Positions 16,339 to 46,913 of a stretch of 64,000 bases of DNA are shown here, one piece after another (position 1 is the first letter of the stretch; every line of letters begins with the position of its first letter). A program made the position numbers and the translations under genes. The stretch spans positions 434,001 through 498,000 of the forward strand of contig NZ_NFMB01000002.1 of NCBI RefSeq assembly GCF_002161215.1, written 5' to 3'. The notes under the pieces are model-generated. The model had not been told where the DNA came from, did no database searches, and saw nothing but the letters and a program-made list of their open reading frames with translations. This stretch comes from Flavonifractor sp. An10. Its GTDB lineage: Bacteria; Bacillota; Clostridia; Oscillospirales; Oscillospiraceae.

Positions 16339-16473
16339 GGTTCGGTCTCCTTTCTCGTTCTCTGTATTTGAGCCCTCTTCCAGTGTGACCTTCTGGGTGG
16401 TCCACGGTGAACCGACCCCCGGTCCAGGAAAAGGGCATACTTCTCCCTTGGCGGAGGCTGTCATGGTTCCGGC

Positions 16474-17385
16474 TCATAAGCTCTGGACCGCAGTCATGGA
16501 CGGGGATGCTGTAAGCGCACCAGCCACCAGGTCTTCGTTCCAGTCTTTATATACGGGAAGGAGGATACCACAGTGGTATCCTCCTTCCTGCAATTCTGTC
16601 TGGAGCCGTCTGGCGGCAGACTGTCCCGGCCCGTCGTTATCCAGGCAGAGCACCACATCCTGCAGGTTCTGATTCTGCTCCAGCATCCAGTGCATGGCCT
16701 GCCCTCCGGTGCCGCACAGGGCCACATAGCTGTGGGCCTGCCAGTCCTCCGGGTACAGGGTCAGAAACGACAGCATGTCGATGGGCGCCTCAAACACATA
16801 GAGCAGGTTATCTCTCCCCACATGGTGGAAGCTGTATTGGGGGCGGCTGCCCTCCACATTGACCTTGAAGGATTTGCCCCGGCTGTTGGTGCTCCGCTTG
16901 TGGGCGTGGCGGGGGACGCCGCCCTCGTCCGCGCCCACAAAGACACAGTTGTGGTACTGGGCGTCCTCATAGAGCAGTCCCTTCCGGACAAAGTGGGTGA
17001 TGATGGCGCCGTCGATCTGCCGCTGCTTCATGAGGTAGGCATACACCCGGCGCATATTCTGGTGGGGAGGGGGCAGTGCAAAGGGCTTGGGCGGCTCCGT
17101 TTCCCGGCTGCCGGCAACGGGATAGGCGCCATTCAGGAGAAACTCCATAGCCTCCTGATAGGACATGCCGTAGTAGTGCTGGACGAAGCTGACCGGATGC
17201 CCACCCTGGCGGCTGTCGTGGTCGTACCACTCGCAGCCCCGGACGGTAATGCTGTGGTCGTTCTCCAGGCGATACTCCCGCCCAGAGTGGAGCAGCTTTT
17301 CGCCGCGCTGCCGCAGCAGCTCCACCAGATCTACGGTGTTGGCCCGCTCCTTCTGCTCGTCGGTATAGTGGATGTAGGTTCCCAT
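16474..17385 (-). CDS. DUF3991/TOPRIM domain protein
   Basis: This 303-residue protein begins MGTYIHYTDEQKERANTVDLVELL. It has an N-terminal DUF3991 region including VRGCEWYDHDSRQGGHPVSF. A TOPRIM fold follows at about residues 195-285, with YVFEAPIDMLSFL supplying the conserved Glu and VVLCLDNDGPGQ supplying the DxD. Such proteins act like primases or DNA-processing nucleases in conjugative elements. AGGAGG precedes ATG 17385. There are 135 non-coding bases before VirD4 starts. It is probably needed for making the second strand after transfer, which is inference. Confidence 0.8.
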   Translation of the reverse strand: MGTYIHYTDEQKERANTVDLVELLRQRGEKLLHSGREYRLENDHSITVRGCEWYDHDSRQGGHPVSFVQHYYGMSYQEAMEFLLNGAYPVAGSRETEPPKPFALPPPHQNMRRVYAYLMKQRQIDGAIITHFVRKGLLYEDAQYHNCVFVGADEGGVPRHAHKRSTNSRGKSFKVNVEGSRPQYSFHHVGRDNLLYVFEAPIDMLSFLTLYPEDWQAHSYVALCGTGGQAMHWMLEQNQNLQDVVLCLDNDGPGQSAARRLQTELQEGGYHCGILLPVYKDWNEDLVAGALTASPSMTAVQSL

Positions 17386-17405
17386 ATTTTCCTCCTGAAA
17401 ACAGA

Positions 17406-17435
17406 GGACGCCGTGAGCATCTGCCCACGGCGTCC
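17406..17435 (-). terminator. Hairpin terminator between SRAP and TOPRIM genes
   Basis: GGACGCCGTG and CACGGCGTCC form a ten-pair stem with a ten-base loop, with T-rich flanks on the plus strand and shorter ones on the minus strand. It would separate the SRAP transcript from the TOPRIM-VirD4 transcript. Confidence 0.6.
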
Positions 17436-17450
17436 TTTTGTACCTGATAT

Positions 17451-18044
17451 TTAAAAGAGTGAGAGCTGTTGGGAGGCTTCCGCCTCCACATGGGTCAGCT
17501 CCGGCGGTATCTGGCGGAGCAGCTCTCCAGCGGCCTGGGGATTGTGTACCCATTCCTCCACCTGCTCCCGCCTCAGCACCAGCGGCATCCGGTCATGGAT
17601 CTCCGCCATGGAGCCATTGGCCGCCGTGGTGAGAATCACACACCGGTGCTGGCCGGCATAGTCGTTCCACAGCCCCGCCAGATAGAGGGCCCGATCCGGG
17701 CCCGGCATCTGGAACCGATACTTCCGCTTCTGCCCACCCCCATGTCCCCACTCATAAAAGCCTGTGGTGGGAAATACGCACCGCCGCCCCAGCACGGACT
17801 GACGGAACATGGGCCGCTCCAGGGCGGTCTCACTGCGGGCGTTGATGATGGCCCTGCCTTTTCCGCCCACCCCCGGATAACCCCACACCATAACCTCCGG
17901 AGCCAGCTCCGCCCCTGCCTCCATCAACACAGGCACCGGATCGGTAGGGAAGACCTCTCCGGTTTTGAACTTGTCCTGCACCTGCTGCAGGATATCCATG
18001 ATCTCCCGGCTCTCCTGGGGGGACAGGCTGTATCTACCGCACAT
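17451..18044 (-). CDS. SRAP-domain (YedK/HMCES-type) abasic-site protein
   Basis: This 197-residue protein crosslinks to abasic sites in single-stranded DNA and shields them. The start at 18044 is chosen because it places the catalytic cysteine at position 2 (MCGRYS), which the family requires; GAGGTGAG precedes it. NARSET (Asn), FYEWG (Glu) and EIHDRMP (His) complete the active site. The last five residues are QLSLF, a canonical beta-clamp binding motif, which is unusual at this place in the family. It is divergent from a Y-family polymerase across a LexA-like box, so it is probably SOS-induced. Confidence 0.9.
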   Translation of the reverse strand: MCGRYSLSPQESREIMDILQQVQDKFKTGEVFPTDPVPVLMEAGAELAPEVMVWGYPGVGGKGRAIINARSETALERPMFRQSVLGRRCVFPTTGFYEWGHGGGQKRKYRFQMPGPDRALYLAGLWNDYAGQHRCVILTTAANGSMAEIHDRMPLVLRREQVEEWVHNPQAAGELLRQIPPELTHVEAEASQQLSLF

Positions 18045-19407: not shown

Positions 19408-20847
19408 CTATTTCAGCCGCATAGCCACCTCGTGGTCGTCGGCCTTGTGGCCCAGTGCCATGCGCTTTTCCTGGAGCATCCGGCGGCGCTTCCTGTCTAT
19501 GTGCAGGCCCTGCTGGATGGCGTCATCCGAAGACTGCTCCCGGAAGATACGTCCCATGTTATGAAACAGGCTGAGCACACATCCGGCCACCTGGGGCCGC
19601 GTCAGGGGCTGCCGCTCTGCTGTGTGCGGACTGGAAGCAGCTGCGCTCTGCTCTCTGTGGTGCTCCGCCTGTCTGGGTGTCTGGGACGGCAAGCTGCTCT
19701 GCTGTGACACGTTATGTTGTGGAAGCTCATCCCGGCACAACTGGAGCACCTCCCGGATGACCATATTGCGCACGGATTTGAACTCCTTCTGCCGGGACAG
19801 CGGTACCCGCTGGGGCGGATGCTCCGTGTAGGTGCGGCACACCTCCTCCCGCATCTGGTTCCACAGGTCATAGGTGGAAGCAACCCGCTCATCCTTTGCC
19901 AGCTCATCCACGATGGCGTCCACCACCGCCTTGGTCTTAGGCGGCAGATAACCATACACCTTTTTCCCGGTGGTGTTCTGGAGCCGGTCTGCCAACTCCG
20001 TGACCAGCCGCTCCAACACCTTGTTTTCACACTGGCCGTGTTCCAGGTCTGCGGTCAGCTCCGCCATAGCCTGCTCTGCATCCCGGCCCAGGGTATTCCG
20101 GTACTCCGTTTTCTGTTCGTAGACGTGGAGCAGGTCCTGCTCAAAAATGCGCCGGCCGAAGGCTGACTTGACCTGTTCGATGCCCTGTTTGGTCAGGTAA
20201 CCCTCTTTGGGGTCAGTGGAGAAGAGCACCAGGTGGATGTGGGCGCTGTGCTCCTTCCGGTGGAAGGCTGCGTACCAGCGCAGGTGCTCCAGCGGGATCT
20301 TGTAGCCCCTGGCGATCTCCGGGAGGCAGGCGCACACCAGAGCGCGCCAGCTCTCAGCCGTGTCGTAGCCCAGCCGCTCCGCGTCCTCACGGCGGATCGC
20401 CACAACCGGTGTCCACACGTTGCCTGTATGCTCCGCCACCTCCCGAACTGCCTGCGAGAGATTGCGCACCTTGCCGTCACCGTTCCACAGTCCGTGCTCG
20501 CCATCCGTTTGCACACCAGGACGATGAGCCACGTAGTCCAGGTAGTTTTCCACCCGGCTCATAGGCTCCACGAAGTCCTCGCAGGCTTGCTGAATGAAGT
20601 GATCTGCATGGCCTCTGGTCGGCTCCCTCCGGTAATCTTCATACTCCAGCAGCTCCTCCGCACCGGGGAAGTCCCGGAGGATGCGCTGGATATAGGCTTC
20701 CTGCTTTTTGGTCGCCGGCAGATCTCTCTGCTCATCGGGCAGCACCTCTACGCCGGGACGGGCTGCGATGTACCGGACACGGTTGGACAGCTTGGCGGCA
20801 TTTTGTCCGCCTTTCAGGTAGGGGGACATGAAACGGACACGGCTCAT
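19408..20847 (-). CDS. MobP-type relaxase
   Basis: This 479-residue relaxase nicks the transfer origin and stays joined to the 5' end of the DNA. The metal-binding H-x-H motif is in KEHSAHIHLVLFS near residue 212. A conserved tyrosine in RVRYIAARPG (about residue 26) is the likely nucleophile. The C-terminal third is polar and low-complexity (QQSSLPSQTPRQAEHHREQS), as in MobP3-like relaxases of Clostridial ICEs. It overlaps its RHH partner by four bases (ATGA). The stop lies two bases from the end of the convergent polymerase gene. Confidence 0.85.
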   Translation of the reverse strand: MSRVRFMSPYLKGGQNAAKLSNRVRYIAARPGVEVLPDEQRDLPATKKQEAYIQRILRDFPGAEELLEYEDYRREPTRGHADHFIQQACEDFVEPMSRVENYLDYVAHRPGVQTDGEHGLWNGDGKVRNLSQAVREVAEHTGNVWTPVVAIRREDAERLGYDTAESWRALVCACLPEIARGYKIPLEHLRWYAAFHRKEHSAHIHLVLFSTDPKEGYLTKQGIEQVKSAFGRRIFEQDLLHVYEQKTEYRNTLGRDAEQAMAELTADLEHGQCENKVLERLVTELADRLQNTTGKKVYGYLPPKTKAVVDAIVDELAKDERVASTYDLWNQMREEVCRTYTEHPPQRVPLSRQKEFKSVRNMVIREVLQLCRDELPQHNVSQQSSLPSQTPRQAEHHREQSAAASSPHTAERQPLTRPQVAGCVLSLFHNMGRIFREQSSDDAIQQGLHIDRKRRRMLQEKRMALGHKADDHEVAMRLK

Positions 20848-21621: not shown

Positions 21622-22665
21622 TTACATCTGAGGCGCAGCAGGCCCTTGCATTTCAGATAGGTAGTGTGCCCGGCAGTCCTCCAGATGCATGCCGGTCATC
21701 TTCACACAGATTGCGTCCATTCTTTTGCCCAGCACCAACTGTTCGTGGACGGTCAGCGGATACCGATACTCCAGTTCTCCCTCTGCACCCCGGTCATGAA
21801 ATACAGACAGGGCGCTGCACACCTTGCCCGTGTCCAGGTCATAGACAGCACAGGCTGTCAGGAAGTCGTCATTGTCAGCCTCTGCCACATGAAGCCCGAA
21901 CACAGCATCAGGATCATAGTTGGGAAGCAGATAGAATGTGAGGTGGTTGTCCAGCTCATTGATCTCATGCTCCAGAGTAAGCTCCTCCAGACGGAAGCGG
22001 CGGCTGCCGCACAACACCGGAGGCTCAGGATCCGACGTCAGCTCTTTTCCATCCAATTTGTTGAGTAGGCGTTCCCAGCGTTGATCTGTGGAGAGATCCT
22101 GTTTCCGGAATGCGTGGTAGGCCGCAATGCTCACATCGTGCATCCGATAGGTATGCCAGCCATCCATTGTGCTGACAGCGGAGAACAAGTTCTTATCAAA
22201 ATCCAAGTCAAAGACACCGGATACACAGCCGGTGTTCTCCAGCCTCTGTGACACCAGCTGGTCGAACTCTTCCTTGGTGATAGGCTGCCGGTTTTTGAAC
22301 CGCTCCGCAAAAGAAGCTGGTTGTGGATCCTGCTCCTCGGAGAGATAGGTGCGCAAGCGCAGACCGGTATGGAGCAGCTGATCCGCTGTGGCTGTTTTGA
22401 AGTACTGCTCCGCGCCATGACCGGTGACATGGTACGCGGCCCAAGTGGTGTTGGTCATTTGCCGGGCAAGCTGTTCCGCACGCTCGGTTTCGATGCGTTT
22501 TTGTATTACCTGCCGTTCCTCTAAGGGGACGCGGGCAGAATACAGTTCAGCCAGCATCTTCTGCATCACCTGCTCGGTATCTGTTCCCTCCACAGCAAGA
22601 TATTTTTCCAGTGCGCTGAGTTCATACTCATGAATCCAAGTTGCAATTTCGACGGAGCCGCTCAT
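21622..22665 (-). CDS. Hypothetical ICE protein
   Basis: This 347-residue soluble protein is of unknown family. The N-terminal third is helical (LSALEKYLAVEGTDTEQVMQKML). The centre carries ITKEEFDQLVSQRLENTGCVSGVFDLDF, and the C-terminus ends HYLSEMQGPAAPQM, which faintly recalls the Met-rich tails of leading-region proteins in this ICE. An AGGAGG site precedes ATG 22665. It lies upstream of the oriT gap and downstream of the DUF6103-like gene, so it belongs to the transfer operon. Confidence 0.65.
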   Translation of the reverse strand: MSGSVEIATWIHEYELSALEKYLAVEGTDTEQVMQKMLAELYSARVPLEERQVIQKRIETERAEQLARQMTNTTWAAYHVTGHGAEQYFKTATADQLLHTGLRLRTYLSEEQDPQPASFAERFKNRQPITKEEFDQLVSQRLENTGCVSGVFDLDFDKNLFSAVSTMDGWHTYRMHDVSIAAYHAFRKQDLSTDQRWERLLNKLDGKELTSDPEPPVLCGSRRFRLEELTLEHEINELDNHLTFYLLPNYDPDAVFGLHVAEADNDDFLTACAVYDLDTGKVCSALSVFHDRGAEGELEYRYPLTVHEQLVLGKRMDAICVKMTGMHLEDCRAHYLSEMQGPAAPQM

Positions 22666-27259: not shown

Positions 27260-28213
27260 TCAACACGGTGGTTTCATGGTCAGCCCATCATTCGAGGACT
27301 GCTGACACGGTTCCTGGCCGGACAAGCATTCATACAGAACGGGCTCAGGCTGTATTTCTCCTGTCTGGATCGGAACTAGGAAATGGGTCACTTTTGCCAA
27401 CAGCTCCTTGTCCGGGCAAGAATAGATAATGCTTCCCCGCGTATCCAGAAGCAGCCGGTCCAACGTGTCGGTCAACACGATCTCGTCTGCGCAAGGGCGG
27501 CTTCCAATAAAATTGGCGATGTCGCGCGGTGTGTCCGGGAAGCGGTATTCCGCGCAGCTGCCATTCTGATAGACTGCGGCGTACACCACGTCGCGGATGG
27601 GAATAAAATAGTCGAATTTGTCTTCCATGGCGCGGAGCTCCGGCGAACGTGATGTCATTCGCTCCCAGATATTTGGAAATTGAGCGGAGTAGTCCAGCAG
27701 GAGCTGGCCGCTGGAGATGTCGGGATGCTGAGGTAACTCACGCTGGAGTTCATTGAGGCTCTGGTCGGTCAATTTATGGTGGTTTAATGCATTGTACAGT
27801 CTGCGCCTCTCTTCCTCATCTGCAAGCGAGAGCTTTTCTGCGTATGCGTCAACGGCACAATCCGCAAAGCTCGGGAAGCTCATTTCTGCCCCAATATGAG
27901 GGTCCTTAGCCAGCGTGTCCGGGTTGTCAATGGCTGCCAAGTAGATCTCTTTCCCTTGGGCAACTAGCCAGGTCCGGAAATCAAGAAACCCATCAGAGGT
28001 AGCAGGGACACCCAGTGCGGTGCTGGCAGCCTGGAGGTCATTGCGGCATGCTGCATCGCGGTATTCATAGAAGTATAGGTTCCAGTCCAGAATGTCCTCC
28101 GGCGGTTTCTGCAACAGCTCACGATAAATTTGTTCTGCCATCATGGATTGGCTCCCGTCAGGAACAGCTTGGCGGGCGGTTTCAATGGTGCTCCAGAACT
28201 CTTCCTTGGTCAT
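27260..28213 (-). CDS. DUF4240-domain protein within the transfer operon
   Basis: This 317-residue soluble protein begins MTKEEFWSTIETARQAVPDGS, the DUF4240 start pattern, with SDGFLDFRTWLVAQGKEIYLAAIDNPDTL at about residues 85-115. DUF4240 proteins often occur near toxin immunity genes. ATG 28213 has GAGGAGG eight bases upstream, whereas ATG 28255 has none. It interrupts the order of conserved transfer genes and ends with DGLTMKPPC, a weaker version of the Met-containing tails seen at 37-45 kb. It is likely cargo rather than a machine part. Confidence 0.7.
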   Translation of the reverse strand: MTKEEFWSTIETARQAVPDGSQSMMAEQIYRELLQKPPEDILDWNLYFYEYRDAACRNDLQAASTALGVPATSDGFLDFRTWLVAQGKEIYLAAIDNPDTLAKDPHIGAEMSFPSFADCAVDAYAEKLSLADEEERRRLYNALNHHKLTDQSLNELQRELPQHPDISSGQLLLDYSAQFPNIWERMTSRSPELRAMEDKFDYFIPIRDVVYAAVYQNGSCAEYRFPDTPRDIANFIGSRPCADEIVLTDTLDRLLLDTRGSIIYSCPDKELLAKVTHFLVPIQTGEIQPEPVLYECLSGQEPCQQSSNDGLTMKPPC

Positions 28214-28258
28214 TTCAGATCCTCCTCTCGTAGAATAGATGTAACCTGATACCAACTA

Positions 28259-36969: not shown

Positions 36970-36982
36970 CTTGTGTTCCTCC

Positions 36983-37309
36983 TTACATCGTCATGGCAGG
37001 GCCATTGTTTTCCTGCGTCTTCTGCATGTTCTGAGCTTGGGTCTGGGTGTAGGCATCCAGCACCTGCCGGTCAAACTGCTGCTTGAATTCCTTGGTGCAG
37101 GGAAAGCAGACATCCCGGTATTCTCCCTGCACCTTTCTGCTGGGCATTGAGACGAAGAGCCCGTTTTTGCTCTCCATGATCCGCACATCCCGGATGGCAA
37201 AGCAGTTGTTCAGGGTCACAGATGCGGTGGCCACGGTGGGGCCTTCCCCGCGATAGGGGTAGATCCTCACATCCAGCTCCATGGGGGTTGCTGCGCTGTT
37301 GGCACTCAT
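36983..37309 (-). CDS. SpoVG-like protein with GPAMTM tail
   Basis: This 108-residue protein has the SpoVG domain: DVRIYPYRGEGPTVATASVTLNNCFAIRDVRI, then NGLFVSMPSRK and EYRDVCFP. SpoVG binds nucleic acid and regulates many genes. Compared with chromosomal SpoVG it carries an extra polar tail (TQTQAQNMQKTQENNG) ending GPAMTM, the same six residues that end the ArdA-like protein at 40469. GGAGGAA precedes ATG 37309. It overlaps the upstream gene by four bases. Confidence 0.8.
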   Translation of the reverse strand: MSANSAATPMELDVRIYPYRGEGPTVATASVTLNNCFAIRDVRIMESKNGLFVSMPSRKVQGEYRDVCFPCTKEFKQQFDRQVLDAYTQTQAQNMQKTQENNGPAMTM

Positions 37310-37962
37310 TTCTTTCTTCCTCCTGTCGTTGATGTATTTTGGTCAAGCCGCTCCAGGGTGCGGCGAACCAACAGATCGTACTCCCAGGGCTCGATCTCCA
37401 GATAACAATAATCGCCGCGCTCTGTCAGCCCATCTGCCCGGAATTTGAGTACCAGGGGATGGCTGGAGGCGCGGCGTTTCCATTCCTCTAAGGAGACCCA
37501 GCCCGTACCGGCAATGTAGACCCAGCGAATGGCGGAACCCGGGTCGTGGTTGATGCTCAGCCACAAATACTTGTCCCGTAGGTGCTTGGGAAGCCGGTTC
37601 GAGCGTGAGAGCGGCATGATGGCGTCAGAACAGAATTGATATCGCAGGTTGAACTGTTTGATACAGTCCTGTGTGGCAGACTTTGCTTCCGGCAGATCCG
37701 CCCAGAGAGGGTACTGCCGGTAGTCGGAGGCCAGGATATCTTCACCCGCTGTATCAAAGGAAAAGAGCGGTACACACCGGACAAGCTCCAGGACATGCAT
37801 ACTGTCCGTCAGCCCAAGTCGCTTGTCCTTCGAAAGGGGAATCTTTCGATAAGAGCGGATTGCCTCCTCCAGGGTGTCAAAATGCTGAATGGTCCATCCC
37901 TTGCGGAGCAGACCTTTCCGCGACAGGGACATATCGTCAATGGTGTAATAAAAAACCTTCAC
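37306..37962 (-). CDS. Hypothetical leading-region protein
   Basis: This 218-residue protein begins with GTG 37962 (KVFYYTIDDMSLSRKGLLRKGW), with GGAGGG upstream. It contains TLEEAIRSYRKIPLSKDKRLGLTDSMHVLELVRCVPLF and ends in a basic tail (TSTTGGRKK), without the Met-rich ending of its neighbours. It has no signal or membrane segment. It is coupled to the SpoVG-like gene by a four-base overlap. The family is unknown to me; similar proteins occur in the leading region of Clostridial ICEs. Confidence 0.65.
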   Translation of the reverse strand: MKVFYYTIDDMSLSRKGLLRKGWTIQHFDTLEEAIRSYRKIPLSKDKRLGLTDSMHVLELVRCVPLFSFDTAGEDILASDYRQYPLWADLPEAKSATQDCIKQFNLRYQFCSDAIMPLSRSNRLPKHLRDKYLWLSINHDPGSAIRWVYIAGTGWVSLEEWKRRASSHPLVLKFRADGLTERGDYCYLEIEPWEYDLLVRRTLERLDQNTSTTGGRKK

Positions 37963-37963
37963 A

Positions 37964-38716
37964 TTATCCCTCCATGTTCATCCCATTCATGCCGGATATA
38001 TGTTGCTGCGATTGGTGTGCCAAGAGCTGCTCCAACTTCGCACTGGCCCAATCCGGCAGGAATTTTTCATCCAGCACCCCCACAAACTCGGTGCGGTTCC
38101 ACCGTGTTGTCTCACCGTCGCCCAGGCAGGTACAGCGGATGGAGCGCCCAATGGCATGGGGGCTGCAGCCAAACCCGTCATGGGCGTACCAAAGTTGGTT
38201 TTCTTGAGACCAGCAGGCCTCCCGCAGAGTGTCAGGACTCAGTACCAGTACCTTTCCCTGATAATCCAGCTCAGACCAGGAATTGGACAGACAGTGCTCC
38301 GGGCCAAAGAGGTTCAGCTCCTGATAGGCCCTGCGGAACTGGGTCACAAATCCATCCAGCACGGCAGGGTGTGACTCCACAATGAAGTCCACTTTGTGGC
38401 CCGTATCGTCAGGGATAAAGGTGCGCTGCGCCCAACTTTTGTTGTCTGGTCTGAAACGGCCATCCCAGCTCTTTTCCTGGATGGTATTGGCCAGCACCCA
38501 GTTCACCCGTTTGAAACCGAACTCCTCCACCACTTCTTTGGCACAGTCTGCTTTGAGGTGCATTCCGTCAAAGCCCTGCCGGATACTCTCCTCAATGGCC
38601 TTTTTGCAGGCAATGTTGGCCTGATAGCTGGCCCGCCAGAGGGCGATATCGCCTTCCCGCCGGGCGGTATCCAGGCCTTGGGTGTAGAGATAGGTATCAT
38701 TCTTCAATTTCTTCAT
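37964..38716 (-). CDS. DUF3849-domain protein with Met-rich tail
   Basis: This is a protein of about 250 residues. Its N-terminal half follows DUF3849: LYTQGLDTARREGDIALWRASYQANIACKKAI, then KADCAKEVVEEFGFKRVNWVLANTI and DGRFRPDNKSWA. The end is SGMNGMNMEG. The start is uncertain: ATG 38716 is immediately after GGAGG, while TTG 38707 has ideal nine-base spacing; both overlap the upstream gene. The function is unknown. It belongs to the group of leading-region proteins sharing a similar C-terminal end. Confidence 0.75.
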   Translation of the reverse strand: MKKLKNDTYLYTQGLDTARREGDIALWRASYQANIACKKAIEESIRQGFDGMHLKADCAKEVVEEFGFKRVNWVLANTIQEKSWDGRFRPDNKSWAQRTFIPDDTGHKVDFIVESHPAVLDGFVTQFRRAYQELNLFGPEHCLSNSWSELDYQGKVLVLSPDTLREACWSQENQLWYAHDGFGCSPHAIGRSIRCTCLGDGETTRWNRTEFVGVLDEKFLPDWASAKLEQLLAHQSQQHISGMNGMNMEG

Positions 38717-39065
38717 CCTCCATTGCCAGAAGCAAACGCAGGCCGTCCGGACTGGCGCCGCAGCCCAGAAGATCGTCCAGAACATCCCTGTCCACATGGT
38801 CCAGCGGATCCGGAACGTCCACGGTGTTCACAATTTCATTGCTGGCGTCCACCAACTGGAGCATCATGGAATCGATTTTTTCCTGGAATAGGTCAATCAT
38901 TTGTAGAGCTTCTTTCACCGAGAGTTTGTCTCGGCTGAGCAGGACGCAGCCCTTTTGGACATCACAAATCAGTTTTTCGCTTCCAACCAGGCCGGACAGC
39001 ACCTTGATAAGGGGGGAGAGTGTCAAGCCGGGTTTATCTAAGTCCGGATAGATTACAAACTGCAT
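38697..39065 (-). CDS. Hypothetical acidic leading-region protein
   Basis: This 122-residue protein begins MQFVIYPDLDKPGLTLSPLIKVLSG and has a helical middle (SVKEALQMIDLFQEKIDSMMLQLVDASNEIV). It ends in an acidic run, AMEDEEIEE. AGGAGG precedes ATG 39065. Its 3' end overlaps the DUF3849 gene by 20 bases, and the overlap contains that gene's ribosome site. The family is unknown; it has no Met-rich tail. Confidence 0.6.
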   Translation of the reverse strand: MQFVIYPDLDKPGLTLSPLIKVLSGLVGSEKLICDVQKGCVLLSRDKLSVKEALQMIDLFQEKIDSMMLQLVDASNEIVNTVDVPDPLDHVDRDVLDDLLGCGASPDGLRLLLAMEDEEIEE

Positions 39066-39092
39066 AGCAAATACCTCCTGTCTTAAAATCGT

Positions 39093-40034
39093 CTATGCCG
39101 CATCAGGTTCGTGGATCAGCTTATAATTCCGCTCCTCTCCCTCTGCCTCCCCAAAGGGGAACAGAGTAAATTGCTGACCATCACGCTTCCATTTGCGCGG
39201 GTCATAGTTGGTGATGATCAGTTCCTCATACACGCTGTCTGCCGTCTGGGACATACTGTTGGGGCGGGTGGTGTAGAAGATGTAGAACTCCTTGTAGAGA
39301 TTCAGAATGAACGGGCAGAAGTTGTAGGATACCATCACACGCCCTTTGCAGTTCACCAGTACATCGTGGAGCCGCTGGTGATCTTCCACCGGAAAATCCA
39401 CCGGGTAGCAGTCTTCCGCCTGGTAATAGGGCGGGTCACAGTAGAAAAATGCATTCTCCCGGTCATACTGCCGGATCAGGCTCTCAAAGTCCTTGTTCTC
39501 AACCACCACATTGGCCAGTCTGCGAGAGCACTCCCAGATCAGATGGAAGAAGCGGCGGATATCACATGGCTTTCCGGCAAAGGCCTTTCCTCCTCCGCTG
39601 AAGCTGTAGCGGATCAGCTTGAAGTAGTCCGCCGCCCGCCGGACGTCCCCCCGCGGGGAACGCTCCAGCAGCAGCTTCCGGATCATCTCCTGTTCCGGAG
39701 GTTTCAGATATACCTGGGTCAGCTCCAGCTCCTCCTCCAGGTAATCGTCGGTAAACTCATCCTTGGAGAAAAATTTATGAAGTACCTCGAAATCGTCCCT
39801 GGAGTTGAGGGGGAGAAAACCCAGTTCCTTCAGCAGGGCCATCGTCCGGTTCTTGACACAGCAGAACAGATTGGTCAGGTTGCTGTTGTAGTCGTTGTAG
39901 ACCTCCAGACAACCCTTGCGGATAGGGCGGTCAAGGGTTACTGTCCCGCTCCCGCCAAACACGTCGATGAAGCGGGGATACCAGGGCGGCGCCAGCTTTC
40001 GGATCAGCCAGAGGAGCTTGCCCTTTCCTCCCAC
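39093..40034 (-). CDS. D12-class DNA adenine methylase
   Basis: This is a protein of about 313 residues that methylates adenine N6 in DNA, possibly shielding the ICE from host restriction. SAM-binding FGGSGTV is at about residue 25 and catalytic DPPYY is near 200. The first usual start codon, GTG 40034, falls inside the conserved N-terminal motif (IPWVGGKGK). The frame reads on upstream as ARSFIPW to an ATT at 40058 with GGAGG at good spacing. True translation may therefore begin at ATT 40058. It follows the HTH gene by 30 bases or fewer. Confidence 0.85.
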   Translation of the reverse strand: MGGKGKLLWLIRKLAPPWYPRFIDVFGGSGTVTLDRPIRKGCLEVYNDYNSNLTNLFCCVKNRTMALLKELGFLPLNSRDDFEVLHKFFSKDEFTDDYLEEELELTQVYLKPPEQEMIRKLLLERSPRGDVRRAADYFKLIRYSFSGGGKAFAGKPCDIRRFFHLIWECSRRLANVVVENKDFESLIRQYDRENAFFYCDPPYYQAEDCYPVDFPVEDHQRLHDVLVNCKGRVMVSYNFCPFILNLYKEFYIFYTTRPNSMSQTADSVYEELIITNYDPRKWKRDGQQFTLFPFGEAEGEERNYKLIHEPDAA

Positions 40035-40064
40035 CCAGGGAATAAAGGACCTGGCAATACGCCC

Positions 40065-40367
40065 TCACCTCCTCGCTGGAAAACCGTCCAGAGCTTGCTC
40101 CAAGCCCTGAATCGCCGCATCCAGCCCGGCACGCATTTTCTTCAGATTTCGGATGGTAGCATAGACTTCCCCTGCGGTCTGGGCATAGAAGTAACCGTTC
40201 CGGTCACTGGCAATGGGCTCGCACTCCTGCCGCAGACGATTGACCGCTTTCCGCAGTTCTGTGCCGTTGAGATTCAGTGTCCGCCCCAGTTCTTTTCCTC
40301 CCATACAGCGGTCCCGTCCAAGGCAGGCCCCTTTCAGGTAGGCCAGCAGTCTCTCTTCCCGATTCAT
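40065..40367 (-). CDS. Small HTH protein upstream of the methylase
   Basis: This 100-residue protein begins MNREERLLAYLKGACLGRDRCM. It contains GGKELGRTLNLNGTELRKAVNRLRQ, a winged-helix-like unit, and the strand pair GYFYAQTAGEV. AAGGAGG precedes ATG 40367. It is probably a DNA-binding regulator or specificity helper for the adjacent methylase, which is inferred from adjacency only. Confidence 0.6.
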   Translation of the reverse strand: MNREERLLAYLKGACLGRDRCMGGKELGRTLNLNGTELRKAVNRLRQECEPIASDRNGYFYAQTAGEVYATIRNLKKMRAGLDAAIQGLEQALDGFPARR

Positions 40368-40415
40368 CGTTTCCCTCCTTTTCCGGGCCTGTTTTTCCAA
40401 AAGGGCACAAAAAAC

Positions 40416-40448
40416 GGGGCCGCTTGTCCCTATCGGAAAAACGGCCCC
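40416..40448 (-). terminator. Hairpin after ArdA-like gene
   Basis: GGGGCCG (40416-40422) pairs with CGGCCCC (40442-40448), with T runs beyond it in the minus-strand direction. It lies between the 342-residue gene and the HTH-methylase pair, which therefore may form a separate unit. Confidence 0.6.
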
Positions 40449-40468
40449 TGTGTGAGATATGAGATTGG

Positions 40469-41497
40469 TTACATGGTCATTGCCGGTCCATGCTCCGGCT
40501 TACTGTACTCATAGTTGAGTTCCTGCCCATTCCGGGCGACATAGCCGTGGTCTGTGGCAGACAGGCCAAACTTCGCCATATGATGCTGGGCGTAAGCCAC
40601 AGAGTCAAAGCACTGGTTGAGCAACGGATCCTGTCCGAGTATGCCTTCCTTTTGTGCCAGCTCCATGCCGTATTGGGCGAGGCCTGCGCCGCGAGGGATG
40701 AATTCATAGCAGTGGAGATTCTGGGAGAGATCCAGAGCCCGGTCCAGCCGGTGGCAGTCCTCCAACTCCAGCACTGCCTGCCATTTCTCCAACCAGTGGG
40801 CTTCCCCCTGGCCCTGCTCCGCCCAGACATAGCCGAAGTCAATGGCGTGCCGCACCAGTTCTCCGGCGGAGTCATACTGGGAGAGGATATTTGTGAGCTG
40901 GGGCAGGGCACAGTCCACATCCACCGCAATGCACTGCTCCAGGGTCTCCGCATCCAGGGCGTCCAGCCCCAGGAGCAGCTCATCCGGGTGAGCGGTGTCC
41001 ATGTATTCTCCCGTGTCAGGGAAGCCCACCCAGACACCTTCCAGGTTGCTCCGGCTGGCTAACTTGACCCGGATGGCGTAGTCGCCAGTCGTGGGCAGTA
41101 CGGCATCCGGTTCCAGTTCGGGGAGCGAGTGGCCGGGGCTGATGCGTTCCACATAGTGGCCCTCCAGAAAACATCCGTCTCCGCTTTCCCGATAGGCAGT
41201 CCCCACAATCTCCGGGTCAAGATAACCTCGTGCTGGGCGAGTAGGGATGTGAATATGCTCCATAACGAACCGCCCCAGGGCTACATCATCATCCGCACCA
41301 TAGAGGAGTCGGTATTGATCCAGTCCCCTCAGAACCCGGAGGGTCTCCTCAACGGTCTGCGGATGCTCCAGCTGCATAGCGCCCTGAAACAACAGTCTCT
41401 CTTTCGCGGTCATGCTTCCGAACCGCTGCTCCAACCAGTCATGCTCAGACTTGCCCATCTCCATACCATCCAGGGCATCGAAGAGGCTGTCCCTCAT
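40469..41497 (-). CDS. ArdA-like leading-region protein with GPAMTM tail
   Basis: This is a 342-residue acidic protein. The middle and C-terminal parts (DYAIRVKLASRSNLEGVWVGFPD, then LDLSQNLHCYEFIPRGAGLAQYGMELAQ) resemble ArdA antirestriction proteins, acidic DNA mimics that block type I restriction enzymes. The N-terminal 110 residues are unfamiliar. The last residues are EHGPAMTM, matching the SpoVG-like protein at protein level but with different codons. GGAGGTG precedes ATG 41497. It is coupled to the next ArdA-like gene by a four-base overlap. Confidence 0.6.
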   Translation of the reverse strand: MRDSLFDALDGMEMGKSEHDWLEQRFGSMTAKERLLFQGAMQLEHPQTVEETLRVLRGLDQYRLLYGADDDVALGRFVMEHIHIPTRPARGYLDPEIVGTAYRESGDGCFLEGHYVERISPGHSLPELEPDAVLPTTGDYAIRVKLASRSNLEGVWVGFPDTGEYMDTAHPDELLLGLDALDAETLEQCIAVDVDCALPQLTNILSQYDSAGELVRHAIDFGYVWAEQGQGEAHWLEKWQAVLELEDCHRLDRALDLSQNLHCYEFIPRGAGLAQYGMELAQKEGILGQDPLLNQCFDSVAYAQHHMAKFGLSATDHGYVARNGQELNYEYSKPEHGPAMTM

Positions 41498-42096
41498 AGT
41501 CCCACCTCCATGCTCGGACCGCCCTGGCTCTGGGAGTAACTCACATCCAGATCACTGTGCTGCACCACATAGCCCCCGGAGGTAAAAACGCCCCCTTCTT
41601 CTTGTCTGGCTTTCCGGCCGATGGCTCCATAATCCAGCAGCTCGTATACCTCCTCTGGCAGTCCGGCCGGCAGGACGGGGAAGTCGTTGTCCACATAGAA
41701 ATGGCCCAGCTGCTCATCATTCCCGGCCTCTGCCACCATATGGCAACAGTCCACACTGCTGGCCAGGTCGATCAAGCGGTTCAGCGGCAGCTCTGCCATA
41801 CCCTTGTCCAGATCCATGCGGACAAGGCCCTCAAAGGCGGCATCCTGCTGCGGGGACAGGTCTGCCAGTTTACAAGCCAGCAGATTCAGCTCTGTCAGCT
41901 TCATATCCTCCGGCAGATGCTCTGCCAGGTAGTCCCGGCCGCAGTATTCCGAGACCTCCACGTAGAGTGGCTGACCAGTATTCAGCTCCAGCAGGAGTCT
42001 GTTCAGCTTTTCCTGCTCTATGGGCAAGTCTATCAGTCGTCCCAGCGAGCTGTCCATTTCCAGCGGACTTACATATACAGAAAAGGTTTTCTTCAA
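41494..42096 (-). CDS. ArdA-like antirestriction protein
   Basis: This 200-residue acidic protein begins KKTFSVYVSPLEMDSSLGRLIDLP. It continues with EVSEYCGRDYLAEHLPEDMKLTELNLLACKLADL, an ArdA-type helical pattern. The tail is QGGPSMEVGL. The start is TTG 42096, eight bases after GAGGAG; GTG 42105 overlaps that site and is less likely. It would protect incoming DNA from host type I restriction. The family call is by pattern, and DNA mimicry is inferred from acidity. Confidence 0.55.
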   Translation of the reverse strand: MKKTFSVYVSPLEMDSSLGRLIDLPIEQEKLNRLLLELNTGQPLYVEVSEYCGRDYLAEHLPEDMKLTELNLLACKLADLSPQQDAAFEGLVRMDLDKGMAELPLNRLIDLASSVDCCHMVAEAGNDEQLGHFYVDNDFPVLPAGLPEEVYELLDYGAIGRKARQEEGGVFTSGGYVVQHSDLDVSYSQSQGGPSMEVGL

Positions 42097-42138
42097 AGCA
42101 ATCACTCCTCGCTCTGATAAAGTAATAGGACGGAATAA

Positions 42139-42612
42139 TCACTGCATGGTCATTCCGTCCTGGGTGTGTTCCGCAGGATCAAAGTTCTCTTCGGCGCTGA
42201 GCCGCTCCTCAACCGCCTTCATGTATGCGTCATAACACCGGGAATACTCGGCGTAGTTTTCACCTCCAATCTCCTCCAGGAATTCCTGTTTGAAGGTCCA
42301 GAGCGGATATTCGCAGAAGCCGCTACTTTTCCGCAGCCCGGTATCCTCTACGATTCCTTGGTTCAGAAGCTGCTGCGCAAAGCGACAGTTGTTGGTATCG
42401 ATGTAGGCACTGTTTTTCAGCCCGATGAATTCCCCGAAGGAGACCGTGAGGGTCGCATAAGGTTCTACGCCATGGTGCTCGTCCACAATCTCATCCAGAG
42501 CAATAGCAAGACCGGGCATTTCCTGGCCCATGAAGTCGTGGACGGAGTAGAGTTCCACTCTTGGATGCAGTTCCACACGGCTGCCAAAGATATCGGTAAT
42601 CTCAAGTGTCAT
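42139..42612 (-). CDS. DUF4313-domain protein with Met-rich tail
   Basis: This 157-residue protein begins MTLEITDIFGSRVELHPRVELY. It has EPYATLTVSFGEFIGLKNSAYIDTNNC and GFCEYPLWTFKQEFLEEIGG, the DUF4313 arrangement of Clostridial conjugative elements. It ends TQDGMTMQ. The function is unknown. AAGGAG precedes ATG 42612. It lies 18 bases past the DUF4314 gene in the same direction. Confidence 0.7.
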   Translation of the reverse strand: MTLEITDIFGSRVELHPRVELYSVHDFMGQEMPGLAIALDEIVDEHHGVEPYATLTVSFGEFIGLKNSAYIDTNNCRFAQQLLNQGIVEDTGLRKSSGFCEYPLWTFKQEFLEEIGGENYAEYSRCYDAYMKAVEERLSAEENFDPAEHTQDGMTMQ

Positions 42613-42630
42613 GTTGGTTCCATCTCCTTT

Positions 42631-43605
42631 TCAGCTGATGGTCATTCCACCATGCTGCTGTGATTTGTACCATTGGGGGTCTGCTCCTGGTACATTCCAT
42701 CCACACATACTTCCAGTGAGCATGGCTTGCTCCTGGGCAGGCGTAATGCCCCGCCTTTCGTTGTTGTAATCGGCCAGGCAGCGATTTTGCTCCGGGTTGT
42801 CCGTATTCCAGTCGCTCACGTAGTATCCGCTCTCGCCCCGTTTGATACAGATCAGGGTTCCGTCGCTGGGCAGCACCGACCAGCACAGATCTGGCAGGCG
42901 TGTTTGTGCGTCCGGCGAGAATCTCTCATCCTCTGTCTGGATACTCCAGTCGCCCGCATTCCAGAGGCTGACATAGAGCTCTCCCTCGTCCAGTTCGATG
43001 GGGCGCTGCTCGAAGCCCTCGCCCCAGCCATCTGAGGCTTGGCCTGAAATGTATTCGGCCAGGGTTTCCTTTTCCTCCGGCAGAAGCTCCCCAATTACCT
43101 TACACTCTGCCACGCCCCAGAGCTGCCCATCGCGGTCTTCCACCTCAAATACCACCGACTGGACCTTTGCCTCTACACCATCCTGCTTATCATACCAGTG
43201 CATCAGCCCGCGGGCTGCCTCCTGCGGCATCCTGTTCTCCACCAGGGTTTCCTGGATGCTGCCCTTATATCTGCGGAGATCCCGCCCATCCATCTCTTCA
43301 CCCTGATCGCTGGGGTCGCCCCAACTATCATAGCTGCGGTATGTTGCTGTGAGCGGCATGTAGAACTTTAACGTCTGAGGTTCCGGGGGAAGAACCTGAA
43401 ACCGATCTTTGCCGATGGCCAAGACCGTCTCCTTGCCATCCTCCCATCTGACATGGAACTGCCCTTCATCGTCAATATGCTCCAGTGTCCCTCTGCTGCC
43501 TGGTTGAACAGGGGAGAGGGCGTCCGTCTGTTCGCTCAGCCGGATACCACTTCCCTTGGGATACTGATCTCGCAGAAAATCCAGCCACTCTTTTTCCACA
43601 GTCAC
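42631..43605 (-). CDS. DUF4314-domain protein with Met-rich tail
   Basis: This 324-residue protein has an N-terminal DUF4314 domain (residues 20-70: SGIRLSEQTDALSPVQPGSRGTLEHIDDEGQFHVRWEDG), which resembles a small beta-barrel. A middle region contains LKFYMPLTATYRSYDSWGD, YISGQASDGWGEGFEQRPI and GELYVSLWNAGDW. The C-terminus is QQHGGMTIS. It has no signal or membrane segment. Its start follows the upstream gene's stop directly. Proteins of this type occur in the leading regions of Tn1549-like ICEs with no known role. Confidence 0.7.
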   Translation of the reverse strand: MTVEKEWLDFLRDQYPKGSGIRLSEQTDALSPVQPGSRGTLEHIDDEGQFHVRWEDGKETVLAIGKDRFQVLPPEPQTLKFYMPLTATYRSYDSWGDPSDQGEEMDGRDLRRYKGSIQETLVENRMPQEAARGLMHWYDKQDGVEAKVQSVVFEVEDRDGQLWGVAECKVIGELLPEEKETLAEYISGQASDGWGEGFEQRPIELDEGELYVSLWNAGDWSIQTEDERFSPDAQTRLPDLCWSVLPSDGTLICIKRGESGYYVSDWNTDNPEQNRCLADYNNERRGITPAQEQAMLTGSMCGWNVPGADPQWYKSQQHGGMTIS

Positions 43606-43606
43606 T

Positions 43607-44653
43607 TCACATGCCTCCCATACTCATATTTTGTGCGGAGCTGTTCTGTATCAGTTCTTGGTGCAGCCGTCTCACCGCCTCGTAAATGACCGGATCAGCC
43701 TTGAAGCTTTCCAGCTTTTGATAATCAGGAAAGAATCGCTGTTTTCCGCCTGCCATGTGGACGATATCCACAGTTGCAATGGAATCCTTGGTGACGCCGA
43801 GGCGTTTCTCCGGAGCATCGCTGCCCTGGTAGAGCTGGATTGCCTCCTCCAATGTCAGTTCCCCGAAAAACTGCTCCTGGGTGGTGTTGCACTCCGTCAA
43901 TACAAACCAGGCATAGGTATGGGGAAGGGAGGGATCTGCTGCATTCCGGAGCCTCTGCATACCTTTCTCCGTCAGGCCATAGTCACATACCCTCTTGGGA
44001 TTTTCCTCGCCAGCAAAGTCCAGGATGATGTCATCCACGGCCTTTTTGACCTGCGGATCGTCGGTGAGTGTTTCATGTCGGAAGCCTGTCGTATTGCGGT
44101 ACGGCAGTTCCTCTCTGATGGTTCGGAGATACTGCTGTGGGTCTGTAAACTCCTGCTCGGTGCCATCTGCAAAGGTCACCCGGCCTACCGGCTTTTCCTG
44201 ATACGCCAGCTCCTGCTGCCGCTTGTCGTAGCAATACAGGTACGCCTGGTAATCACCGGGACTGGGGGTGCAGCGCAGACAGTAGCGGTAACGGTCTGTC
44301 TCCACCACATAGCCGAAGCTGCGCCCGTCCTCGGAGATAGCCCCGCCGTTCTGGGCGCAGAAGCTACGCATCGACGTCAGATCCTTCAGTGGTCCATCCG
44401 CCCGGAGGGTATCCACGATGGTTTGAAGTTCATCTTTGAACTCCGGGATATTGAGCTGATTCTGGTTGTGGGGCCACCAGGTGTGCCAGAATTCCTTTCC
44501 GTGGTGACCGAAGTCCATTCGGACATGCCCCACGGTACCCAGTGCCTTGTCCTGTTCCACGTCCAGTTCCGAATAGAAAAGGCCCGCCTCCTCAAGGGAA
44601 GCGGGCCTCAACTGGACTCCGTTTTCACTTGTTCTTACAGCGCGTTGATTCAT
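43607..44653 (-). CDS. Hypothetical leading-region protein with Met-rich tail
   Basis: This 348-residue protein begins MNQRAVRTSENGVQLRPASLEEAGLFY. It contains VRMDFGHHGKEFWHTWWPHN, PVGRVTFADGTEQEFTDPQQYL and, near the end, FFPDYQKLESFKADPVIYEAVRRLHQEL. It ends AQNMSMGGM. The family is not known to me. AAAGGAGGTG precedes ATG 44653, so the longer frame from 44689 is rejected. A terminator-like hairpin (GGCCCGC, GCGGGCC, then TTTTC) lies inside its first 40 codons on the coding strand. It is co-directional with the DUF4314 gene, one base apart. Confidence 0.65.
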   Translation of the reverse strand: MNQRAVRTSENGVQLRPASLEEAGLFYSELDVEQDKALGTVGHVRMDFGHHGKEFWHTWWPHNQNQLNIPEFKDELQTIVDTLRADGPLKDLTSMRSFCAQNGGAISEDGRSFGYVVETDRYRYCLRCTPSPGDYQAYLYCYDKRQQELAYQEKPVGRVTFADGTEQEFTDPQQYLRTIREELPYRNTTGFRHETLTDDPQVKKAVDDIILDFAGEENPKRVCDYGLTEKGMQRLRNAADPSLPHTYAWFVLTECNTTQEQFFGELTLEEAIQLYQGSDAPEKRLGVTKDSIATVDIVHMAGGKQRFFPDYQKLESFKADPVIYEAVRRLHQELIQNSSAQNMSMGGM

Positions 44654-44762
44654 GGGTTTCACCTCCTTTCTTTGGTAAGCACACAACATACCACACCGTG
44701 CAGGAAATATCTACTGCATTTCCATCACCCCCGTATTTGTTCTGAATTTGCGGCCATCAACG

Positions 44763-45431
44763 TCACATCGTTGGTTCCAGTCCGGGGCTGTCATGCTCTT
44801 CCAGACTTTGAATAATCCGCTCCCTGCAATCCGGTACCAGGTCCTGAATTCTGTCCTGGATTTCCTGGATAACCTCCTCCTGTTCTCTGGATAGCGCACA
44901 GCTAAACGCCACATAAGAGCACTGCTGATAGATCTCGATGAGCTGCTCGGGAGTAAACTGCCGTTCATGGGGGACAAGCCCTGATCGGACTGCAAAGTCC
45001 TGCTTTGCTCCGGAATAATCTCCCTCATAGTAGTTGCCTTGGTTGAGACTGGTGTGGTTAAAGCTCCAGTCCCAGGTAACGAATTTAGCCCCGTGGTCTG
45101 TCTGTCGTCCAGCCAATACCGTACCGTTGAATTCGGCCAGCGCCCTGTAGGGCTCGTTTAACCCAGTCGCTTGAAGGACGGGCGCCCGCTCCAATAATGT
45201 CATGTATTCCTGGACAATAGTGGCCGAATCTGTGACTCTTCTGCAGGCCGCCTCCCGGTCCAGAGTATTCACATTATCCTGGTGATAGAAAACGCTGCCG
45301 GTTGCATCAACCCGACACAACGGCCGACCTTCATACTCCACCGGGAGGAAACCGTCCTGTTCCGGCAGCGCGGTGAATCCAGACCGACTCAGGACAATCC
45401 CCAGTTCTTTAAAATATAGTTCCTTGTTCAC
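44763..45431 (-). CDS. Conserved leading-region protein
   Basis: This 222-residue protein begins with GTG 45431 (NKELYFKELGIVLSRSGF), with AAGGAGG eight bases upstream. The frame extends to 45605 but through a hairpin-rich leader without a site. It contains REAACRRVTDSATIVQEYMTLLERAP, LAEFNGTVLAG and QGNYYEGDYSGAKQDFAVRSGLV, a combination I recall from Clostridial ICEs next to ArdA-like genes. The C-terminus is HDSPGLEPTM. It has no membrane segment. The role is unknown. Confidence 0.65.
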   Translation of the reverse strand: MNKELYFKELGIVLSRSGFTALPEQDGFLPVEYEGRPLCRVDATGSVFYHQDNVNTLDREAACRRVTDSATIVQEYMTLLERAPVLQATGLNEPYRALAEFNGTVLAGRQTDHGAKFVTWDWSFNHTSLNQGNYYEGDYSGAKQDFAVRSGLVPHERQFTPEQLIEIYQQCSYVAFSCALSREQEEVIQEIQDRIQDLVPDCRERIIQSLEEHDSPGLEPTM

Positions 45432-45450
45432 TTTACTTACCTCCTTGGGC

Positions 45451-45493
45451 TGGCGCCCTTTTTGATTTTGGGGAAAACAAAAGGGCGCCGCTT
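45451..45493 (-). promoter_or_regulatory. Long leader hairpin before the leading-region genes
   Basis: GGCGCCCTTTT (from about 45454) pairs with AAAAGGGCGCC (to about 45491) around a 14-base loop, just upstream of the ribosome site of the GTG-start gene. On the minus strand the arm GGCGCC-CTTTTG is followed by T-rich bases. It may act as a terminator or attenuator controlling entry into the genes at 45.4-37 kb. Confidence 0.45.
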
Positions 45494-45601
45494 TGATGGT
45501 CATCAAGACCAACAAAACGGCGCTGCTATTTATGCTAATTATTTTAGAAAGACGAGATAACGGGTGATAGAACGATATAAGTAAATTTATATCCTTTGCC
45601 A

Positions 45602-46156
45602 TCAAACTAACCTGTTTATGATAGTTGCTAATTTGTGCGAGAGTGTAGCTGGATGAGTATGTATGTAATCAGATATAAACTGAACGAGCCATTGCTTTGC
45701 CACCTTGCGTCCCTCCGGACAATATACACATTGAAGCCTTTTTGAATTTATCCATTGGTTGATTGTCTGTAAATTGTATCCGGTTAACCGTGAAATTTCC
45801 TTTGTAGTGAGTGCATCTGGTGCTCCCCTCCAACTTGTGTGCAGTTCTTTCTGAATCTCTTTATCGGAGATATGTGTAACTGCATGTGTTTTTTTCTCCT
45901 TGTTTGTACTGGTGAAGAGGCCAACAGGTGTTACAGGCTTTTGAGGATTGTTTTCTGAAGCTAACAAGTAGTTTATTACATCAACAGTACGAACTTGGAA
46001 GCGACGGGTTTTCTTCCCGGAATCCTTGCACGGAATTATTCCGTTTTCCAAGAGCCAAGTTGCCTTTCGCTTGCTGATGTGGCAGATGCGGTATACCTGC
46101 TCCTTGCTAATGATTTCAGGATACTCAATCAACAAAGCAGAATAATCTCTGTTCAT
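45602..46156 (-). CDS. Double helix-turn-helix protein near the attachment site
   Basis: This 184-residue protein has two excisionase-like winged-helix units: residues 15-62 (ISKEQVYRICHISKRKATWLLENGIIPCK onward) and 110-165 (LTTKEISRLTGYNLQTINQWINSKRLQCV onward). AGGAGG precedes ATG 46156. It is the outermost gene of the ICE at this end, about 515 bases from the tRNA-derived attachment site. It could act as the recombination directionality factor or as the regulator of the leading operon. This is inferred from position and fold. Confidence 0.65.
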   Translation of the reverse strand: MNRDYSALLIEYPEIISKEQVYRICHISKRKATWLLENGIIPCKDSGKKTRRFQVRTVDVINYLLASENNPQKPVTPVGLFTSTNKEKKTHAVTHISDKEIQKELHTSWRGAPDALTTKEISRLTGYNLQTINQWINSKRLQCVYCPEGRKVAKQWLVQFISDYIHTHPATLSHKLATIINRLV

Positions 46157-46671: not shown

Positions 46672-46728
46672 ACTCGAAATCAGTTTGGGAGCAATCCCAC
46701 GAGGGTTCGAATCCCTCCCGCTGCGCCA
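46672..46728 (+). other. ICE attachment site: 3' half of tRNA-Ser
   Basis: The sequence contains an anticodon loop of tRNA-Ser(CGA) type (CTCGAAA), a 3' stem (TCAGT), a long variable arm (TGGGA-GCAA-TCCCA), a T-arm (GAGGG-TTCGAAT-CCCTC) and the acceptor strand ending GCCA. The 5' half of the tRNA is absent; no matching stem precedes the loop. This is the fragment left at the distal end when an element integrates into a tRNA gene with crossover in the anticodon loop. The intact tRNA should lie beyond the left edge. Confidence 0.75.
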
Positions 46729-46767
46729 AAAAGAAAGACACGACGTAAGTCGTGCCTTTCTTTTTGG
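46728..46767 (+). terminator. Terminator of the tRNA-Ser locus
   Basis: AAAAAGAAAG, ACGAC and GTCGT, CTTTCTTTTT form a long hairpin directly after the tRNA CCA end, followed by further T residues. It fits the original tRNA-Ser terminator. Confidence 0.7.
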
Positions 46768-46904: not shown

Positions 46905-46913
46905 GTCTTCATC

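Follow-up and report, generated by a model that had tools for sequence, protein, structure and literature searches.

We analyzed a 64,000-nucleotide stretch of Flavonifractor sp. An10 (contig NZ_NFMB01000002.1, positions 434,001 to 498,000; hereafter, the window), which carries an integrative and conjugative element (ICE) in a host genome of 3.9 Mb. We observed that proteins of unrelated families encoded by this element end in a polar linker followed by a short, Met-containing motif, referred to here as the tail. The nine tails quoted in a preliminary description of this DNA were all found where it had placed them, on the minus strand. They belong to a SpoVG-family protein (36983..37309; PF04026, E = 1.7e-28; tail ENNGPAMTM, with tail codons at 36986-37003), a DUF3849 protein (37964..38797; PF12960, 2.7e-51; MNGMNMEG), an ArdA-like protein with a weak Pfam match (40469..41497; PF07275, 0.00067; HGPAMTM), an ArdA protein that clusters with it (41494..42105; PF07275, 4.1e-09; GPSMEVGL), a DUF4313 protein (42139..42612; PF14190, 7.4e-11; DGMTMQ), a DUF4314 protein (42631..43605; PF14192, 4.4e-19; GGMTIS), a two-domain protein without an assigned family (43607..44689; QNMSMGGM), another protein without an assigned family, whose tail is of a loose form (44763..45605; SPGLEPTM), and a DUF4240 protein with a weak tail (27260..28255; PF14024, 2.3e-26; DGLTMKPPC).

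The last of these lies in the transfer part of the element, and the preliminary description had treated it as a weak case beside the carriers of the presumed "leading region", a label of its own (the relaxase gene is ~16 kb away). The tails of that region stand, but other proteins of the transfer part, which had been missed, carry loose forms as well: a protein without an assigned family (21622..22665; GPAAPQM), a DUF3991/Toprim primase-like protein (16474..17553; PF13154 and PF13155; SPSMTAVQSL), and perhaps the MobL relaxase (19408..20847; PF18555, 1.2e-25), with at most a weak tail (DDHEVAMRLK). Some soluble proteins of the transfer part are thus tailed, and the tag extends beyond the leading region. 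The VirD4-type coupling protein (T4CP; 14599..16464; PF02534, 1.7e-39), which we propose as the putative receptor of the tail, is untailed; all of these genes are on the minus strand. By Pfam, the element also has a VirB4-like TraG P-loop ATPase, a TrbL protein, an M23 peptidase and a sortase. The neighbors said to be tail-less, namely the Dam methylase (39093), the helix-turn-helix (HTH) proteins (40065 and 45602) and the products of 37306 and 38697, indeed have no tail.

As had been reported, the two GPAMTM tails (GGC CCT GCC ATG ACG ATG and GGA CCG GCA ATG ACC ATG) differ in four of the four non-Met codons. In the window's own genome, GGNNCNNNNATGACNATGTRR occurs solely at genes 36983 and 40469, and among 391 genomes of the class, three contain GGNCCNNCNATGACNATGTRR, of which one is the window's own and one has no stop after the motif. 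A census of exact motifs was too strict to be of use (GPxMTM in 3/391 genomes, MxMGGM in 6/398). We scored a tail as strict when at least two Met residues lie within the last eight; five of the 12 called genes in 36980-46200 have such an end, and the other tails of the window are looser.

Searches of Pfam and NCBIfam gave no family above cut-off for the 43607 protein, family searches gave no match above cut-off for the 44763 protein, and in NCBIfam, the sole name for a window carrier was SpoVG, below cut-off. An AlphaFold model of the 43607 protein, of moderate confidence (pLDDT 76, pTM 0.44), had no fold match in the PDB at E <= 0.001, and its tail residues 353-360 have a pLDDT below 50. Compared with phage records by megablast, window positions 36000-48000 gave one short match.

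Distribution and composition of the tail

To place the tail outside the window, the DUF4314 family alignment was scanned over genome contigs, and the best 80 of 268 loci, mainly from Oscillospiraceae and other Clostridia, were taken together with four loci from a viral collection (84 in total). Genes were called by a script trained on the window genes, which recovered 42 of 43 of them and called few genes at four loci (G141, G176, G948 and G1007). The survey set comprised 1096 proteins from + strand genes, deduplicated on the last 40 residues, some of which lie outside the elements. The controls were 251 proteins of the window's own genome, from 16 stretches and part of the window, unscreened for mobile elements; parts of mobilizable elements are present in two of the stretches (L117 and L118).

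The results show that 345 of the 1096 distinct element proteins have a strict tail, compared with 1 of the 251 controls and one among 107 genes on the minus strand of the survey loci. The strict criterion overlooks loose forms such as GPVLTM, EPQIDM and VQSM. Among internal 8-mers of the element proteins, 333 of 28892 had the same Met content. The p-values of Fisher tests on these counts are nominal because the sequences are related. The preliminary description had allowed that the motif might be no more frequent than in shuffled C-termini; when the last 30 residues were shuffled in 1000 rounds, the number of tailed proteins averaged 67.6 and never exceeded 92, against the 345 observed. These results indicate that the tails are real and that the pattern extends well past the window.

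The tail has a defined length and composition. Across the 465 members of the tailed families, Met accounts for 14-42% of residues at each of positions -1 to -7, 3% at -8, and 2.3% in the body of the proteins. The linker, at positions -20 to -9, is enriched in Q, P and E. The mean net charge of the last 25 residues of the 345 tailed proteins is -2.58, with +2 or more in 2% of them, and E[DE] occurs within -20..-6 in 33% of tailed proteins, compared with 15-16% of controls.

Could the tail be a by-product at the level of the DNA, in which Gly-Gly-Met reflects the Shine-Dalgarno sequence (GGAGG) of the gene that follows, or in which 3' ends were copied? The Gly codons of the tail are GGA in 44% of cases versus 17% in gene bodies, and GGAGG-type codons are found in 33 of 39 MGGM ends. 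On the other hand, the share of GGA is still 43% in genes separated by more than 80 nt from the next called one, untailed gene ends lean to GGA as well (31%), and tails before gaps of at least 60 nt (103/371) are about as frequent as overall. Furthermore, both GPAMTM ends of the window are free of a Shine-Dalgarno sequence, Thr in MTM ends is encoded by any of its four codons, and the in-frame Met codons are left unexplained. This origin is thus very improbable and was largely rejected, although the excess of GGA (44% versus 31% in untailed ends) is only partly explained.

Tails are a property of particular families. When proteins were clustered with the last 15 residues removed, 32 families had at least five members; 11 of these were at least 50% tailed, 20 were never tailed and one, that of the 44763 protein, was intermediate (10/40 with at least two Met). 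SpoVG (31/33 distinct element members), DUF3849 (43/49), the ArdA cluster of 40469 and 41494 (122/180), DUF4314 (34/67), DUF4240 (6/9, with ends such as NMNMEGM, MKMGGM and DIKMEGM), the family of the 43607 protein (43/52) and five others form the tailed group. The never-tailed families include Dam (0/51), the 40065 HTH protein (0/50), the 38697 protein (0/43), the sortase at 35270 (PF04203; 0/35) and the TrbL/VirB6-like protein at 28739 (PF19511; 0/9). In ten ICE regions, none of the homologues of VirD4, the VirB4-like protein and the M23 peptidase was tailed. Homologues of the loosely tailed transfer-part proteins vary: those of 21622 end in DGQSM, TQPLM, ETPQM, TQPTM or TGPTM, with four more lacking such an end, and those of the 16474 primase-like protein end in GPAMTME, GGMSLAL, AEPVMA or QQEMG, others having no tail.

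Within a family, the tail persists while the rest of the protein changes. Sister elements on IMG/VR contigs keep their tails though the surrounding sequence diverges, and the untailed window neighbors that have matches there are likewise untailed. The SpoVG protein of a second ICE in the window's genome ends in QDGSMGGMSM, and a relative of the 40469 ArdA at 60% identity ends in EPTMSM. Relatives of the 43607 protein range from 140 to 623 amino acids; that of locus L008 aligns only to window residue 237, yet ends in QNMNMGGM, and at L009, the gene is split into two open reading frames, both tailed. As judged from these sequences, the tail survives changes in domain make-up.

Protease tags are typically short, unstructured C-terminal tails, and a degradation or stability tag would hand early element proteins and the relaxases of mobilizable elements (below) to a host or element protease, keeping them short-lived. 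It is plausible that the carriers are needed for a short time only, and the tail is disordered in the single model made. However, the 40065 HTH protein and the methylase, for which turnover could matter, are never tailed, and such a tag leaves unexplained why relaxases are tagged solely where VirD4 is absent. We regard this explanation as unlikely.

The preliminary description had also allowed that homologues outside ICEs might carry the same tails, and here, they do not. Of the SpoVG matches from 155 genomes of the class, the 30 best served as controls; these proteins, taken to be chromosomal, have no tail (0/30), and their ends are mostly acidic. Viral-contig relatives of DUF4313 and DUF4314 are also untailed (0/3 and 0/16 distinct ends; 0/19 together). 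Compact ArdA proteins of another type have the ending ...HGIFEIVY. In some other families of the class, ArdA proteins do have Met tails (...KFGGM, ...MGGMKFE), and the tag is therefore not limited to one family. A phage-wide tag was considered and rejected: a search for MxMGGM-stop gave 37 viral-contig stretches without a many-family pattern within one contig (hit genes only), and the hits with frames longer than 60 amino acids were in part recurrent ends of a few families and in part two element contigs (L194 and L199).

MobL relaxases and mobilizable elements

In the window's genome, the MxMGGM-stop search gave three further hits, all of them MobL relaxases ending in GGMVMGGM or GGMGMGGM. 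We then examined MobL proteins that had not been chosen by their tails: 78 matches in 295 genomes of the order, of which 70 ends were read. Of the 64 with a stop, 19 have a strict tail, and these occur in several families of the order. One end was empty and was dropped, and the other 63 were compared with the positions of VirD4 genes. Strict tails were found on 19 of the 35 relaxases without VirD4 within 15 kb, but on none of the 28 with VirD4 (0/28). The group without VirD4 includes relaxases at contig ends (for example, G936, G876, G896:C46 and G990:C171) and one, G959:C3, with VirD4 pieces ~15.9 kb off. Its 16 untailed members include some with a loose tail (GGITMG, QGPNLIM, EPTMNL, QGPAVSM) and some located at the end of a contig. 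The relaxases of ICEs end loosely (NGPSM, GGPEMR, HEPEMQL, EEPTITM) or have no such ending.

On closer reading, loci with a tailed relaxase have the make-up of mobilizable elements, which combine MobL with tyrosine recombinases (Pfam-confirmed in the elements tested). Sixteen such loci were picked mainly for tailed or near-tailed relaxases, so that the rate of tailing there (13/16) is biased; 12 of 347 other genes scored as tailed, and by eye, none of these shares the linker and motif. Three of the 16 loci were left out of this gene count, one because it has a type IV secretion system (T4SS; G909_C3) and two with few called genes (G948 and G1007). By tblastn, homologues of VirD4, the VirB4-like protein and TrbL were absent from 13 of 13 loci with a tailed or near-tailed relaxase, over the 16-60 kb examined at each. 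The tail thus marks the relaxases of mobilizable elements as well as the soluble proteins of conjugative elements. In the window's genome (G000), six MobL loci without nearby VirD4 lie on contigs C1, C3, C11 and C13, alongside several VirD4-bearing elements; Pfam found no VirD4 on C3, C11 and C13, and those on C1 are ~100 kb or more distant. The single relaxase checked there has Sel1 repeats.

Because the relaxase of a mobilizable element has to be offered to a T4SS that is not the element's own, a docking or export tag is expected there. A docking tag could also act without export, by bringing its carriers to an element-encoded hub (the relaxosome, the T-strand complex or the replication site) in the same cell. 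This would suit the primase-like protein, SpoVG, which binds nucleic acids, and the relaxases of the mobilizable elements too. However, it is not evident why ArdA would have to be there, and no ICE genes were seen beside the tagged mobilizable elements, so that a resident ICE would have to supply the hub, which points back to the T4SS or T4CP of that ICE. Docking of this kind appears to us quite improbable.

The tail as a candidate secretion tag

Could the tail be a signal for export through the conjugation machine? On the sequence evidence, we consider it probable that it is a C-terminal type IV secretion tag common to early-acting proteins of conjugative elements and to the relaxases of hitch-hiking elements. 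It would be short and portable and would serve one lineage of Gram-positive conjugation systems. The disordered linker rich in Q, P and E would present about seven Met-containing residues, in forms such as MxMGGM, GGMxMx and GPxMxM, at the end of soluble proteins. These residues would be bound by VirD4, or by an adaptor attached to it, and the T4SS would carry the protein into the recipient, either along with the T-strand or next to it. After arrival, SpoVG, ArdA, the primase-like protein and a number of the DUF proteins would act early, blunting restriction and aiding establishment. By tagging their relaxase, mobilizable elements without a T4SS would gain access to that of a resident ICE, whose own relaxase would be recognized otherwise (for example, through an internal signal or an accessory protein) and would need no tag. 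The preliminary description had weighed delivery into the recipient against a common chaperone or protease tag, and we infer from the MobL split (19/35 versus 0/28) that delivery is favored; its wider view of the carriers as anti-defense proteins holds in part, as not every carrier is a known anti-defense protein.

If this is correct, the tag predicts which element proteins enter the recipient and explains how mobilizable elements lacking a T4SS gain access to a helper. Furthermore, a function could be guessed for many DUF families, namely action in the recipient just after entry.

How does the tail compare with known signals? The C-terminal signal of the Legionella Dot/Icm system has an E-block, and the tail may resemble it in being short, with hydrophobic near-end residues after an acidic stretch; on the other hand, the tail is Met-specific, belongs to a conjugation system and has E[DE] in just a third of its carriers (33%, against 15-16% of controls). 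BID and XVIPCD secretion domains are folded C-terminal domains on the order of 100 residues or more. The tail matches neither kind: the signal is ~7 residues long and disordered in the single model, and no such domain occurs among the Pfam hits of the window proteins. GroEL carries C-terminal GGM repeats, which face the cavity in one chaperone family and are not known to be linked with mobile elements; the likeness, judged by description only, is in the Gly-Gly-Met wording.

The signals of VirD2, MobA, VirE2/VirF and the F-plasmid conjutome are alike in being C-terminal and in occurring on unrelated co-transferred proteins and on relaxases, among which the tail is divided (19/35 without a nearby VirD4, but 0/28 with one and 0/10 in the ICE regions). 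The tail shares with T4SS signals its extreme C-terminal position (-1 to -7) on unrelated families, its carriers being putative substrates. The signals described for these systems are positively charged, hydrophobic or internal, and highly variable, whereas the tail is a near-uniform seven-residue Met motif behind an acidic Q/P/E linker in Gram-positive elements, and its last ~25 residues do not have the net positive charge of the VirB/VirD4 type. According to the excerpts of two papers, the T4SSs of F plasmids translocate plasmid proteins, some via C-terminal and some via internal signals, and VirD4 is named as the substrate receptor (PMC8406263, PMC11288057). The polyvalent proteins of phages and conjugative elements, which are predicted to be delivered with the DNA, are similar in being early-acting element proteins, ArdA included; the available part of that paper describes no shared C-terminal tail, and the tail is here also on relaxases (PMC5512222). 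The portions available of the MOBL paper (PMC5313138), a T4SS review (PMC12857230) and a study of mobilizable elements of other kinds (PMC12904643) contain no such motif, and a search of the open-access literature, with subscription papers and preprints outside its range, found no description of such a tail.

The tail may follow the lineage of VirD4. In ten tailed ICE regions, VirD4 is 61-81% identical to that of the window. For another ICE type, we selected six regions on the basis of their ArdA genes, in most cases for an ArdA with a different end. In four of these, VirD4 is 26-27% identical and no protein is tailed (0/91, including 0/29 in an ICE of the window's genome); the two regions that lack a VirD4 match contribute 1 of 35, giving 1 of 126 for all six. 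These comparisons are only suggestive of a link between the tail and the VirD4 lineage.

Several observations weigh against the tail being an export tag of this kind. If it were a general T4SS signal, the relaxase of an ICE should carry it; yet no MobL relaxase with VirD4 nearby is strictly tailed, nor is any of the 10 in the ICE regions surveyed, so that another contact has to be assumed. The relaxases of G929, G958, G902 and G1033 stop just after AHGLK or AHGLR, and that of G929 ends in AHGLKQ despite the many tailed proteins there. At a VirD4 identity of 47-60%, the ICEs form a mixed group, with strict tails on 9 of 46 proteins in G929 and 3 of 35 in G1033 and few in G958 (1/43), G1050 (1/36) and G981 (1/34), and the tail-less ICE type had itself been selected for its differently ending ArdA proteins. 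Many of the tailed relaxases of mobilizable elements are interrelated, and their count is not one of independent events. In addition, the tail region is acidic, which is unlike the positively charged signals of the VirB/VirD4 type, and part of the pattern is also compatible with a tag for degradation or with one for docking in the absence of export.

Another ICE type and other features of the window

The other ICE type (L391-L405; G000:C10 at ~145-172 kb, G076, G048, G078 and G150) has protein ends of its own. By eye, and without a count, these consist of a basic stretch followed by KEDISL, KEDILL, KPREETL, KNHDLEV, KNHELEV, KPPEHDL or KSDREI, and its relaxase-like proteins, also by eye, end in NNELE, NQIE or DREPEL. 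These ends are possibly a second tail code, to judge from the sequences. As a tentative generalization, Gram-positive conjugation might use lineage-specific C-terminal export codes, in which the MobL/VirD4 lineage would read the seven-residue Met tail and another lineage a different one. The tail would then list the injected proteins, and to hijack the matching machine, mobilizable elements would imitate the code carried by the protein cargo of the ICE rather than by the ICE relaxase.

A SRAP protein (window 17451-18053; PF02586, 1.4e-40) ends in QQLSLF, which resembles a sliding-clamp-binding motif, and is conserved in the second ICE of the genome. Past the transfer genes, 422-11943 holds ~15 same-strand genes without assigned function, several with ends near-identical in the ICEs of A. 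colihominis and CE91-St43; this run is probably cargo of the element. By the element end, at 46869-48119, two open reading frames resemble, by eye, short IS200/IS605-type transposases (...HIVFAPKYRRK...), and a tRNA-Leu lies near them at 48478.

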